A DNA stretch of 64,000 bases from an uncultured bacterium (GTDB lineage: Bacteria > DRYD01), in assembly GCA_937139605.1 (NCBI GenBank), contig CAKZQG010000002.1:24457-88456 (forward strand). Reading direction: 5' to 3'. The position numbers and the translations under genes were made by a program. The notes beneath the pieces were generated by a model, which worked only from the letters and a program-made list of their open reading frames with translations, did not search any database and was not told the DNA's origin. Position 1 is the stretch's first letter. The number at the start of each line of letters is the position of its first letter. Below are positions 29,103 to 63,956 of the stretch, piece after piece.

Positions 29103-29197
29103 TAGCCCCATTATTAGGGGGGTATTTAACCCCCTAAGGGGTTATGGGGCAAGCCCCATTGTTAGGGGGGTTTTTGGGGTTATCTTAACCCCCTAAG
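29103..29197. repeat. G/C-run palindromic repeat cluster
   Basis: Two copies of AGCCCCATTRTTAGGGGGGT, each followed by ACCCCCTAA, plus GGGGCAAGCCCC; striking in an AT-rich background. Confidence 0.7.
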
Positions 29198-29300
29198 AAA
29201 AATTGATTTTTATCAATAAAATAATAAAATTTTTTATGATAAAAAAAGAGGAATTTTTTTTTTGAATAATATTATTAATAACTTAAGGAGGTGATAATTA

Positions 29301-35790: not shown

Positions 35791-37770
35791 TTATCCGAAT
35801 AGCATTATAGCGAAGGCTTTTGTCCAGTATTTTATAGCGGTATTAAAGTCTTTGTTATTGAAATAGATAACGGCGATATTAAAATAAGCTAACCAGTATT
35901 TTGGATTAATTTCTATAACTCTTTCCCATTCCATTATTGCTAATTTATATTTACCTTCAATATAATATGCTTCGCCTAAATTATAATGTGCTTGCCAATG
36001 TTTTTTGTTGATAGTTGTAACTTTTTGCCAATTTTTTATAGCAGTTTCAATATCTCCGAATTCGAAGTAACTGACATTTGCGATGTTCCAATATGGTTCC
36101 CACATATCGGGGTTATAGAAAGTTGTTTTTTTCCAATATTCTAGTGCTAGTTCTACGTTGCCTTGTAGATAGTAAGCGTTAGCTAAGTTATAGTAAGCTT
36201 TCCAGAGTTTAGGGTTATAATTAACAGCTTTTAGCCATAAATCTATAGCGCTAATAATATCAGAAGCCTCAAAATAAAGGTTAGCTAAATTATAATAAGC
36301 TTCAGAAAAGGAGGGGTTTAGTTCTATACATTTTTCTAACATTTCTTGTGCTTTTTGGTAATCGCCTATCTCTAAATTATATAGAGCTAAGCTATAATAA
36401 GACATAACAAAATTAGGATCAATTTCTATGACTTTGTTCCAATAATGTAAGGCTTCTTCAATCCTATCTTGAGAATAATATGCGTTTGCTAAATTATACA
36501 TTGCATCAACTAAGTTAGGGTTGATTACTAATGCTTTTTGCCAATTATCTATGGCTTCTTCTATGAATCCTTTTTTATAAAGTGCGTTAGCTAAGTTATG
36601 ATAACCTGGCGCAAACTTAGGGTTAAGCAAAACTACTTTTTTATAATGTTCTATAGCTTTATCTAAATCATTTACTCTATAAAATGCTGAGGCTATATTA
36701 TAGTGAGTAACAAAGTTATTAGGACTTAGTTCAACTGCTTTTTTATATTCATTTAAAGCTATATCTAATTTAGATAACCCATCATATGCTGTCCCTAAGT
36801 TATTGTGAATTAGGGGATTAAAGGGATCATATTCTGCTGCTTTTTCCCATTCTAATATAGCTAATTCTAAGTTCCCTTGTTTGTAGTAGTTAGTGCCTAA
36901 GGTGTTATGCATAACAGCTTTTGCTGGGGATATGTTCCATTTTCTTTGTTCTTTTTTTATTTCTATTAATGAGTTTATTATATCTCTAAAGCTATCTGGT
37001 CTAAGATCGGGATCCTTAGATAAGCATTTTGATATTAAATCACTTAGAGCTATTGGAATTTTATTATTAATTTTATTTAGATCAGTAGCTTTATCGTTTA
37101 TAATACTTTCAATAGTTTTAGTTATGGAATCTTTTAAGAATGGGTGTGTTCCTGTGGTAAAATAATAAAATAATAAAGCCCAGGAGAATATATCGGTTTT
37201 TTTAGTTATATTTGAGCTTTTATTACATTGTTCAGGAGCCCAGAATATTAGCTTTTCACTAAATTGATTGCTGTTAAATAGATAATTAGAATCTATATAT
37301 CCGAATGCTAAATTAGTTATTTTAAAAATATCTCCAGTAAATATAATATTTTTAGGTTTTAGATCCTTAAACAATACGTTATATTCGTGTATGTAAGCTA
37401 AAACTTTGGCTAATTCTAAAAAGAAATCGATATATTTTTCTAATTCTTTTTCATCTGTTATTTTTTTAGGTTGGATTATTTCAGTTAGCATTAATCCATC
37501 GACTTTTTCGAAAGCGATATAGAATATCCCTTCCTGTTCATTAAGTTCATAAATATGAGCTACATTAGGGTGTTTTATTTTTGATGCTAACTGAATCTCT
37601 TTTAATAGGTTATCTCTATTTTCTGATTCTTCTAATAAGACAGGACTTAGTAATCTTAAAAATACTTCTTTGTTAATAATAGGATCAAAAGCAATATAGA
37701 TTTGCCCTAAGGGGCTGGAATCGTATTCTTCTTTTACTTGATATCTCCCTATTGTTGCTGTAAATTGCAT
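35791..37770 (-). CDS. Serine/threonine protein kinase with C-terminal TPR repeats
   Basis: Kinase 'HPNVAHIYELNEQEGIFYIAFEKVDG', 'YNVLFKDLKPKNIIF', 'FWAPEQ'; about ten TPRs ending '...YYNLANAYYLQGNVELALEYWKK...'. Confidence 0.9.
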   Translation of the reverse strand: MQFTATIGRYQVKEEYDSSPLGQIYIAFDPIINKEVFLRLLSPVLLEESENRDNLLKEIQLASKIKHPNVAHIYELNEQEGIFYIAFEKVDGLMLTEIIQPKKITDEKELEKYIDFFLELAKVLAYIHEYNVLFKDLKPKNIIFTGDIFKITNLAFGYIDSNYLFNSNQFSEKLIFWAPEQCNKSSNITKKTDIFSWALLFYYFTTGTHPFLKDSITKTIESIINDKATDLNKINNKIPIALSDLISKCLSKDPDLRPDSFRDIINSLIEIKKEQRKWNISPAKAVMHNTLGTNYYKQGNLELAILEWEKAAEYDPFNPLIHNNLGTAYDGLSKLDIALNEYKKAVELSPNNFVTHYNIASAFYRVNDLDKAIEHYKKVVLLNPKFAPGYHNLANALYKKGFIEEAIDNWQKALVINPNLVDAMYNLANAYYSQDRIEEALHYWNKVIEIDPNFVMSYYSLALYNLEIGDYQKAQEMLEKCIELNPSFSEAYYNLANLYFEASDIISAIDLWLKAVNYNPKLWKAYYNLANAYYLQGNVELALEYWKKTTFYNPDMWEPYWNIANVSYFEFGDIETAIKNWQKVTTINKKHWQAHYNLGEAYYIEGKYKLAIMEWERVIEINPKYWLAYFNIAVIYFNNKDFNTAIKYWTKAFAIMLFG

Positions 37771-37966: not shown

Positions 37967-38926
37967 ATGTTGGGAAAAATAAAAACTTATGTAAAACCGA
38001 AGGATTTGGAATTAGGTGTTTTAAAGAAACATAAATTTTCTTTATCTAAGGATTTAAAAAGTGAATTAGAAATGGATTTATATGTACAAGCGGAAGCAAA
38101 ATCGGAATTTGACTTAAATTTTGGGAAAACTAAGCGAGATCAAAATAACAATATCATTTATAACCAAGGCTTAAAAACTAATTTATATGCAGTAATAGGA
38201 GCAGGTTTAGAAAATTCTATAACGATTAACAATAAAAATGATTCTATTACAACAACTATTGAGATTTATAATACTTTATATGGCGATGGTTTTTTATTTG
38301 AATTCTATAGAAGTGCTATATTAAATACTAATAGCTGGATACTGAAATACTATTTTAATTTAAGCTTAGGAATAGGAACTTTAATAGAACCATTTACATT
38401 GGTAGGCATAGGACAGGTAATTAATAAAATTTTACAATTTGATATTTTAACAGCTATTGAAGGAGAAGTTGATCTTAAAGAAAAAGCCAAAGAATCTAAA
38501 AATAAACTTTATAAATATGCTAAAAATATTCTATATAATGAATTTAATGAATTTAATAAAATAAGTATTCCAAAAGGAAAGATAAAAAACAAAAATATAC
38601 AAACTGAAAAATTATTAAAGCAGAAAGCTTTGATAAAAGCTTGGGAAATTAAACATTATCAAATTAAGCAAAATTTAATTAGCTATGCTAAGAATAAAAT
38701 TACTAATATTATTCCTTCATTTTTAAATACTTTAACTGAAATTATTAATAATTCAATTGATAAAAAGATTAAAAATAAACTCATAAAAAAATCTGCTTTT
38801 TTTATAATTTCAAATATTAAAAATGTAATAAATAACTTATCAAGTGTTTTTTTATTAGCTATATTTTCAAAACCAGTAGAAAAAGTTATTAGTGAGATAA
38901 CATTAAAAGATCTTAAGAAAGTGTAA
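37967..38926 (+). CDS. Hypothetical protein
   Basis: 319-aa ORF convergent with the RT gene; hydrophobic segments, no recognised family. Confidence 0.55.
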   Translation: MLGKIKTYVKPKDLELGVLKKHKFSLSKDLKSELEMDLYVQAEAKSEFDLNFGKTKRDQNNNIIYNQGLKTNLYAVIGAGLENSITINNKNDSITTTIEIYNTLYGDGFLFEFYRSAILNTNSWILKYYFNLSLGIGTLIEPFTLVGIGQVINKILQFDILTAIEGEVDLKEKAKESKNKLYKYAKNILYNEFNEFNKISIPKGKIKNKNIQTEKLLKQKALIKAWEIKHYQIKQNLISYAKNKITNIIPSFLNTLTEIINNSIDKKIKNKLIKKSAFFIISNIKNVINNLSSVFLLAIFSKPVEKVISEITLKDLKKV

Positions 38927-38958: not shown

Positions 38959-40128
38959 TTATTGGAATATTTCGGATAATCGGGTGTGGTATTTTTTATA
39001 AAGGTTGTTATATTTATTAGGATTTATAAAGTTTAGGTATGATAGTTTTCCTTTAAGAGTTTCTATTTTTTCTTTGGTTAATTTATTTTTATTAAAAGAT
39101 AGGTTATGGATTTCTGCGCGTAGATTTTTATAATATTTTTTATTTATATTTATTTTTTGGTTTATAGATAATCCTAATACTATTTTTCTTTTTTTTAGGA
39201 CTCTTATTTTTGAATCGTTTATTTTTAGTTTATTTTTAGCAATTATTTTTTTTAATTCTATTATTATTTTGTTTGTGATGTTTTTTAAATCTTGACCTTT
39301 TAAGGAGGTATTGAATGATATTATGATATTATCTGCGTAAATTGTGTGATCTATTGATGAGATGTTGTTATCATTTTGCAGGGTTTTGAAGTAGTTTTTA
39401 ATTTGGTTGTTTATGTTAGTTATAATGAGATTAGCGATTGTAGGGCTTGTGGGGCTGCCTATTGGTAAGGCACATTTAGTTTTAATCTTATTATCTTCTT
39501 GGTATTTTATTTTAGTTGTAGTTAAGGCAGTTAAGAAGGCAGCTACATCTGATGGGTATCCTAAGTTTTCAAAGGCTTTTCTAACTTTTATTCTTCCTAT
39601 GCCTGGAAAGAAATTTTTTATATCAATTAGGATTAATATATCTTTTTTTACATGTTTTTCTACAGCTAATTTTATATTTTTATTTTTAATATATCCGCAG
39701 ATTTCTTCGGGAAATGTCAATTTATCTAATATATCTTTTTTTATGATTTTCTGGATTTTTTTAGTAAAATTTTTAGGGATATATATGTATCTTTCTTTAT
39801 TTTTGGTAATTATTCTTTTTTCTATGTAGAAATCACTTGTTTTAGTATTAAAGAGTGCAAAATTTATTAGCATTTTTGGTAAAACTTTATAATTATCATT
39901 AAAATATTTTAAGATTTCTTTTATACTTGGAAAGTAAGGGATATCTGGATTTATTGAACTATTTACTTCTAGTAATTTTCTTTCTTCAGATTTAAAATAC
40001 TCTAATGGATTTGTTTTTAAGTTATCTGTTGTTTTTATTTTTAGACCACTTAAGTATACAGATTTAGTTTTATTTTTATTTTCTAATTTTAAGATTTTTT
40101 TGATGTAGTTAAAGATATTTTTTAGCAT
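38959..40128 (-). CDS. Retron-type reverse transcriptase (divergent; YADN catalytic box)
   Basis: 'RYIYIPKNFTKKIQKIIKKDILDKL', 'ILIDIKNFFPGIGRIKVRKAFENLGY', 'CALPIGSPTSPTIANLII', 'HTIYADNIIIS', 'RKIVLGLSINQKININKKYYKNLRAEIHNL' follow the retron RT block order. Confidence 0.88.
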   Translation of the reverse strand: MLKNIFNYIKKILKLENKNKTKSVYLSGLKIKTTDNLKTNPLEYFKSEERKLLEVNSSINPDIPYFPSIKEILKYFNDNYKVLPKMLINFALFNTKTSDFYIEKRIITKNKERYIYIPKNFTKKIQKIIKKDILDKLTFPEEICGYIKNKNIKLAVEKHVKKDILILIDIKNFFPGIGRIKVRKAFENLGYPSDVAAFLTALTTTKIKYQEDNKIKTKCALPIGSPTSPTIANLIITNINNQIKNYFKTLQNDNNISSIDHTIYADNIIISFNTSLKGQDLKNITNKIIIELKKIIAKNKLKINDSKIRVLKKRKIVLGLSINQKININKKYYKNLRAEIHNLSFNKNKLTKEKIETLKGKLSYLNFINPNKYNNLYKKYHTRLSEIFQ

Positions 40129-40150
40129 ATTTAATTTAAAAAATTAATTT

Positions 40151-40186
40151 AAAAAACTGCAGGAGTAAGGGGTTCTTACTCCTGCA
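40151..40186 (-). terminator. Strong intrinsic terminator upstream of the RT gene
   Basis: Perfect 12-bp stem TGCAGGAGTAAG/CTTACTCCTGCA, 5-nt loop, followed on the minus strand by G-TTTTTT. Confidence 0.8.
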
Positions 40187-40285
40187 CTAACGGGGATACA
40201 TTGACAAATGTATCACCGTTTTGTTATTATGCCCTATTAGTGTTTTTTGCGGTAGCGAATCACTACCAATTTCATTATTCTTCAT
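40151..40285 (-). ncRNA. Candidate small structured RNA upstream of and co-oriented with the RT (possible msr/msd-like RNA), overlapping a 32-codon ORF
   Basis: Hairpins GGTAG/CTACC, AACGG-x-GATACATT/AATGTATC-x-CCGTT and the terminator stem within 135 nt; sORF MKNNEIGSDSLPQKTLIGHNNKTVIHLSMYPR (40187-40285) with GGAG upstream. Confidence 0.45.
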
Positions 40286-63327: not shown

Positions 63328-63675
63328 GTGTCTAAATTGTTCGTAGGTAACTTAAGCTATCAATTAACAGAAGAGGAGTTTAAAAACACTTTCGAACCCT
63401 ATGGTAGTATAAAAAATTTAAGACTACTAACTAATAAGGGGTTTGGATTTGTAGAATACGAAACTCCTGAAGAAGCTCAAAAAGCTATAGAAAATTTAAA
63501 TGGTAAAGAACTCAAAGGAAGACCAATGAGAGTAGAATTAGCTAAACCTAGAGAAGAAGGATTTAGATCTAATAATAACAGATTTAGAAATAGAGGCTTC
63601 TCTTCTTCTAGAGGATCATCCTCTAAAACCTCTTCTAATAGAAACTTTAGAAGAAATTTCTCTAAATCAGAATAG
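63328..63675 (+). CDS. RRM-type RNA-binding protein
   Basis: 'KLFVGNLSYQLTEEEFKNTFEPYGSIKNLRLLTNKGFGFVEYETPEEAQKAIENLNGKELKGRPMRVELA' (RNP1/RNP2), R/S/N-rich tail; GTG 63328 has SD AAGGAGG, so the track start 63307 is probably too early. Confidence 0.93.
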   Translation: MSKLFVGNLSYQLTEEEFKNTFEPYGSIKNLRLLTNKGFGFVEYETPEEAQKAIENLNGKELKGRPMRVELAKPREEGFRSNNNRFRNRGFSSSRGSSSKTSSNRNFRRNFSKSE

Positions 63676-63956
63676 TTCCTATTAAATTATAAATTAAATC
63701 ATCAATTCTTTTTGCTATACCCCCTCTTTATTCTATCCATATTTCATATCTAAATCTATTTATTTCTATCTAAATGTTTTTATATTATTTTTAATTTATA
63801 TTTTTATAAATAAAATTATAAATTTTTTTATTTTTTTATCTTAATTTTTAAGGAGGATTTTTTTTTTTAATATAAAATTTAAAAATATAAAACTAAAAAT
63901 AAAGATTTAAAAAATTTAGTTATAAAAAATAAAAAAATAAAAGGAGGGGGTTAAAA

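Follow-up and report, generated by a model that had tools for sequence, protein, structure and literature searches.

The closest described systems are the retrons Ec86 (Eco1) and Ec67 (Eco2), in which a noncoding RNA (ncRNA) lies upstream of the gene for a reverse transcriptase (RT) with a characteristic block order, a histidine in region X and a stretch of the NIDRxYYxxLRAxxH type in region Y. These features recur at a locus in the window, the whole stretch of 64,000 nucleotides from an uncultured bacterium that was analysed. However, the window RT differs from the RTs of Ec86 and Ec67 in having YADN and not YADD in motif C, VLG and not VTG at the start of region Y, I/T at the position of the motif B glutamine and no arginine before the catalytic box. 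The cassette differs as well, as it apparently lacks an effector gene or fused Toprim and has no clear a1/a2 repeats.

The second aspartate of motif C is in contact with metal A and with a non-catalytic ion close to it, and enzymes mutated there mostly lose some or all of their activity (PMC3394715). Mn2+ suppresses mutants at this position in poliovirus polymerase and HIV RT (PMC3394715). A published survey gives the residue as Asp in all RTs and, among the groups it compared, as Asn only in the birnavirus polymerases, which are naturally ADN and become more active once changed to GDD (PMC3394715). Like the window RT, the birnavirus enzyme has a natural Asn at this position, and it is active (PMC3394715). 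However, it is an RNA-dependent RNA polymerase with permuted motifs and serves as an analogy of chemistry only, not as a relative. A literature search for YADN in an RT found no description. With the RTs reported here, the question whether this aspartate is indispensable can be put to natural enzymes and not to crippled mutants.

The RT gene and its product

The initial annotation had described an intact frame of 389 residues with the conserved RT blocks and the YADN codons. All are present, and the strand, which it had not given, is minus (Table 1). Its assignment of the protein to the RTs of retron type was borne out by several methods. The protein matched Pfam RVT_1 (1.6e-22), and the PADLOC models listed for it were all retron RT models (25 of 25), RT_XIII being the top match (4e-51). 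The best relative of solved structure was the Ec86 RT (6e-20) and, by profile, the Ec67 RT. The NCBIfam retron_St85 score was 153 bits, below the cut-off of 235 for that family. AlphaFold, with 27 retron RTs as the input alignment, predicted a low-confidence helix and linker for residues 1 to about 60 and a confident RT fold for residues of about 61-389, with a confidence of about 94-98 in most blocks of the core from residue 61 onward. When the model was compared with the PDB, the best 18 matches were all retron RTs. Furthermore, in the RT tree the protein and its relatives fall among retron-like RTs and are separate from the outgroup, a group II intron. Judged by profiles, predicted fold and tree, the window protein is a real RT of the retron clade. 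It was the sole RVT_1 match in its own genome.

Table 1. Features of the RT and of the predicted RNA upstream of it
Feature	Position (+ strand coordinates)	Strand	Basis or remark
Retron-type reverse transcriptase, 389 aa	38959..40128	minus	Uninterrupted ORF, profile matches, AlphaFold model
VLG for VTG, residues 317-319, start of region Y	39172..39180	minus	Alignment
Motif C, YADN, residues 264-267	39328..39339	minus	Codons TAC GCA GAT AAT; kept in G003 and G004
Motif B, LPIGSPTSP, residues 221-229	39442..39468	minus	I/T/T for the usual Q at 223
Motif A, DIKNFF, residues 169-174	39607..39624	minus	D169 is the retained metal ligand
Region X equivalent, AVEKH, residues 155-159	39652..39666	minus	His invariant
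Predicted structured ncRNA, three hairpins, directly upstream of the RT	40150..40285	minus	Folding z -6.6, paired both-sided changes
Hairpin SL3, 12 bp, 5-nt loop, then T run; candidate msd hairpin or ncRNA 3' end	40158..40186	minus	Structural alignment
Hairpin SL2, 13 positions with one mismatch, loop UGUC	40190..40219	minus	Folding, structural alignment
Hairpin SL1, 7 bp, loop AUU; candidate msr recognition hairpin	40251..40267	minus	Folding, structural alignment

Searches beyond the phylum were also made. A tblastn search of phages and plasmids with the window RT gave no match at 1e-5, and a search with the related RT of genome G004 returned generic retrons only. Genome contigs yielded one distant St85-type retron. 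No relative was found when viral contigs were scanned with a profile of the RT clade and with L004.

The PADLOC model of the retron type XIII RT (PDLC02956) was the top match of the window RT and of both its relatives described below (172-188 bits). However, the unrelated viral RTs L107, L108 and L113 also match this model first (179-228 bits), and true members of a type reach 370-551 bits on their own PADLOC model (L114 on VIII, L034 on III-A). Membership in type XIII was rejected because the score is low and unspecific and because no PADLOC retron partner gene adjoins the RT.

Distribution of the YADN box

In the phylum sample for the RT survey, 7 genomes, the RT was present in three, with one copy in each. 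The copies in G004 (L002) and G003 (L003), genomes of another genus than that of the window, are 45% and 40% identical to the window RT over the full length and likewise carry YADN and VLG. All three frames are open, and the proteins, referred to here as the window clade, are 40-49% identical to each other. Among the copies found in the 7 phylum genomes, comparison of the sequences indicates that YADN is a clade feature, and its presence in G003 and G004 excludes a sequencing error or recent decay. A strain mutation or error had been entertained in the initial annotation, and the orthologues, with YADN and not YADD, speak against both. Its suggestion of a recently inactivated retron RT did not survive either, since the frame is open in all three species, at 40-49% identity, and D169, D266, R113 and K307 are retained. 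The other suggestion, a divergent clade with changed or lost polymerisation, agrees with the data, as YADN is fixed in all three and neighbouring near-invariant residues have changed too.

The rarity of the box was evaluated in three ways. In a set of 82 non-redundant reference RTs motif C ended in DD in 79, and the remaining three were YADN retron RTs (L108, L113, L114) that had been added deliberately after a targeted pattern search. A second set of 96 RTs, made up of 80 from viral contigs together with retrons of plasmids, phages and genomes and a group II intron, was gathered regardless of Asn. Motif C read YADD in 85, YSDD in 6, YVDD in 3, YGDD in 1 and YIDD in 1 of these, with YADN only in the three members of the window clade, but the viral part of the set had been fetched partly by a pattern that demands DD. 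Finally, a complete scan of the viral contigs for Y-T-x-Y-A-D-N (third residue R or S) returned 7 stretches, three of which are the retron RTs L108, L113 and L114, whereas the DD version of the pattern gave at least 120 matches. YADN thus amounts to at most a few percent.

Other conserved residues

Three motifs of the window RT had been singled out as altered in the initial annotation, a view that holds in part. The D-to-N change in motif C is, on these comparisons, the unusual deviation, rare but not unique, whereas VLG and AVEKH had been over-read. In retron-like RTs VTG occurs in only 47% and NAXXH in 59% (PMC4244168). Leucine stands at the threonine position of VTG in 6 of 82 other RTs of the comparison set, and region X of the clade reads AVxxH, with the Asn of NAXXH lost and the His, a residue that did not vary in the RT alignments, kept. 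By these frequencies, the VLG and NAXXH deviations look like ordinary variants.

In the RT region of the window clade 90 of 288 positions (31%) are invariant. R113, D169, F173, F174, G224, S228, D266 and K307 are among them, D169, F173 and F174 belonging to the longer motif A block DIKNFFPGI (residues 169-177). The invariance of R113, D169, D266, K307 and the others, at a level of 31% overall, suggests from sequence that catalysis is still under selection in the YADN clade. K108 is seemingly lost in the clade, but the alignment is gappy there and this residue was left out of the argument.

Three near-invariant residues are missing from the clade: the motif B Gln (Q223 to I/T/T), the Arg before YADN (R263 to I/V/I) and the helix Asp D240. 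L108, L113 and L114 retain all three. Sequence comparison therefore indicates that the palm of the clade has been remodelled beyond the single D-to-N change. The motif B Gln, which is I/T in the clade and part of LPQG in most retron RTs, is presumably the equivalent of HIV Gln151, and nucleotide selection too may differ in the clade.

Predicted structured RNA upstream of the RT

The predicted ncRNA directly upstream of the RT gene ranked first of 1826 windows of the 64 kb by folding strength and is present as a single copy in the genome. The folding z against shuffled sequences was -6.6 in the window, -8.4 in G003 and -4.6 in G004. The three loci share one plan. SL1 has 7 to 9+ bp and a loop of 3 nt (AUU in the window, GUC and GUU in the relatives); after 29-34 nt comes SL2, with 12-14 positions, and beyond a short gap SL3, with 11-12 bp, precedes the RT start. 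An Rfam search matched no family.

MAFFT could not align the three sequences, and the hairpins were aligned by hand on structure. Pairing is kept across the three genomes in 87 of 90 cells, although the sequences of the arms largely differ. Both-sided changes occur at 26 of 30 pair positions, a count that is approximate for a hand alignment of three sequences yet far above the slid controls, in which pairing is lost. Of all the evidence that an RT and an RNA work as a pair at this locus, the covariation upstream is the strongest; the initial annotation had not mentioned this RNA. SL3 resembles a terminator in the window; in G003 it is followed by TAGTCC and no T run.

A search for a1/a2 flanking repeats in the three clade loci found complementarity no better than that of shuffled sequence, and the hairpins are flanked only by short A+T-only repeats. 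In the window clade the primer helix may be altered or hidden.

An ORF of 32 codons (MKNNEIGSDSLPQKTLIGHNNKTVIHLSMYPR; 40190-40285, minus), which has a good ribosome-binding site, lies across SL1 and SL2, and inspection of the sister loci by eye showed no counterpart. Two other windows, 29121-29260 and 63561-63700, both minus, fold at z below -6, nearly as strongly as the ncRNA of the RT.

Viral YADN retron RTs

The RT tree was computed without the motif C columns. The window clade had a support of 100/100 and was joined with the YADD RTs L084 and L107 at 90/94. These two, the nearest branch, have LLG/VLG, carry YADD and come from viral contigs, and no strongly folded RNA was found upstream of either. 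The viral L108, L113 and L114 have YADN in an otherwise intact retron RT, as in the window, but are placed elsewhere in the tree, L108 branching with YADD RTs at 99/90. A least-change count on the tree requires four changes to Asn, while an AU test did not reject one clade of all YADN RTs (p-AU 0.203). By its distribution over the tree, YADN is likely to have arisen convergently.

Upstream of the YADN RT of L108 (IMG/VR contig 3300034759_000344), positions 2448-2950 hold three tandem complete msr-msd-like units. The units share a 64-nt msr block with a 3-nt-loop hairpin, and their msd hairpins differ. Each unit has one a1/a2 pair of 9-12 bp (TAAACTTGGGTA/TACCCAAGTTTA, GTTTGGGTA/TACCCAAAC and GCACAGGTA/TACCTGTGC), and these pairs were clear by the same kind of search that found none in the window clade. 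The a1/a2 units indicate that a YADN box is compatible with canonical retron RNAs. L108 is a retron with an array of ncRNAs, and a literature search for such arrays found nothing evidently on this arrangement. L114 matched the PADLOC model of the retron type VIII RT at 2e-111; L114/L124:1-924 is a retron type VIII RT carrying YADN.

Extent of the cassette

In G003 and G004 the ncRNA and RT are flanked by genes for a thioredoxin-like protein and a thioesterase (named from sequence), within a run of housekeeping genes on one strand. G005 provides a natural empty site, where these two flanking genes are direct neighbours. In that genus the cassette therefore consists of the ncRNA and the RT, with no effector. 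The window cassette occupies a different site, between an alcohol dehydrogenase gene and an unrelated ORF of 319 residues. A fused effector was not found, as the N-terminal 60 residues of the RT are not a folded domain in the AlphaFold model. The cassette is apparently without a linked effector, and an unlinked one is possible. The RNA and RT of such a unit may serve another role than toxin guarding.

Proposed mechanism and alternatives

On balance, the locus is probably a selected, effector-less retron-like cassette in which the RT still carries out two-metal catalysis on its own ncRNA, slowly or with a shifted metal preference. The RT would bind the three-hairpin ncRNA through its C-terminal region Y, and a short cDNA would be primed and templated by this RNA, as happens in retrons. 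Asn267 stands at the position of the second motif C Asp, a residue involved in holding catalytic metal A as well as a third ion near it. The aspartates D169 and D266 are kept and, by the established two-metal scheme, should suffice to place both catalytic metals, so the enzyme most likely still polymerises, slowly or with an altered metal preference such as for Mn2+. We infer RT-RNA binding, cDNA synthesis and altered metal use, as well as a role in phage defence or regulation. The data comprise an intact, selected RT clade with Asn and three further YADN retron RTs, one of them with textbook msr-msd units. A more far-reaching reading, tentative and less likely than not, is that this natural RT lineage is active although it lacks the second motif C Asp, its metals being arranged differently (with Mn2+-dependent or deliberately slow synthesis, for example) in an effector-less RT-ncRNA system, and that the change has arisen several times among retrons.

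The main alternative is that polymerisation has been lost and that the RT is kept as a binder of the three-hairpin RNA, the two forming a stable RNP that would make no DNA and would serve in regulation or as a structural particle. This is a serious though not the probable explanation. The D-to-N change falls where Asp is normal, the motif B Gln, the Arg before the box and the helix Asp are lost, and neither an a1/a2 primer helix nor a linked effector was detected. In HIV RT, replacing both motif C aspartates by Asn removes all activity (PMC5498913), but in a double mutant the effect of the second position is not isolated. Moreover, D169, D266, R113, K307 and the FF after motif A are invariant where only 31% of positions are, and L108, a retron whose units have canonical a1/a2 repeats, has YADN as well. 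A working but attenuated or metal-shifted RT is therefore favoured over a polymerase-dead, RNA-binding one.

The upstream hairpins could instead be a 5' leader or attenuator of the RT mRNA, the RT having another substrate. The terminator-like SL3 and T run of the window, the lack of a1/a2 repeats and the position of the G003 and G004 cassette inside a one-strand housekeeping run would fit this proposal. We consider it improbable, since the T run is replaced by TAGTCC in G003, all three hairpins are kept, including SL1 with its constant 3-nt loop, and their placement matches that of retron ncRNAs. Recent inactivation of a retron RT, or a single-codon sequencing or strain error, is given far less credence still. 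AAT is one base from the GAT of GAT GAT, and the change of other near-invariant residues could be read as decay. However, the codon encodes Asn in each of three genomes, assembled separately and belonging to two genera, whose RTs have open frames and are 40-49% identical, and the partner RNA is under selection. The working, attenuated or metal-shifted RT remains the preferred reading.

Neighbouring genes

The 319-residue ORF beside the window cassette (37967-38926) was considered as an effector and rejected, having a homologue in G001 without an RT match and no match to a defence family. PADLOC gave no match on the neighbours tested except for generic kinase models on a Ser/Thr kinase. This protein, of 659 residues with TPR-like repeats (35791-37770, minus), matched several PD-T4-6 defence kinase models (1.7e-40) and is probably a generic signalling kinase. 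The thioesterase gene of G004 (L116 / G004:C22:3036-3566) contains one in-frame TGA relative to its homologues, which may reflect a pseudogene, a frameshift or an assembly error.
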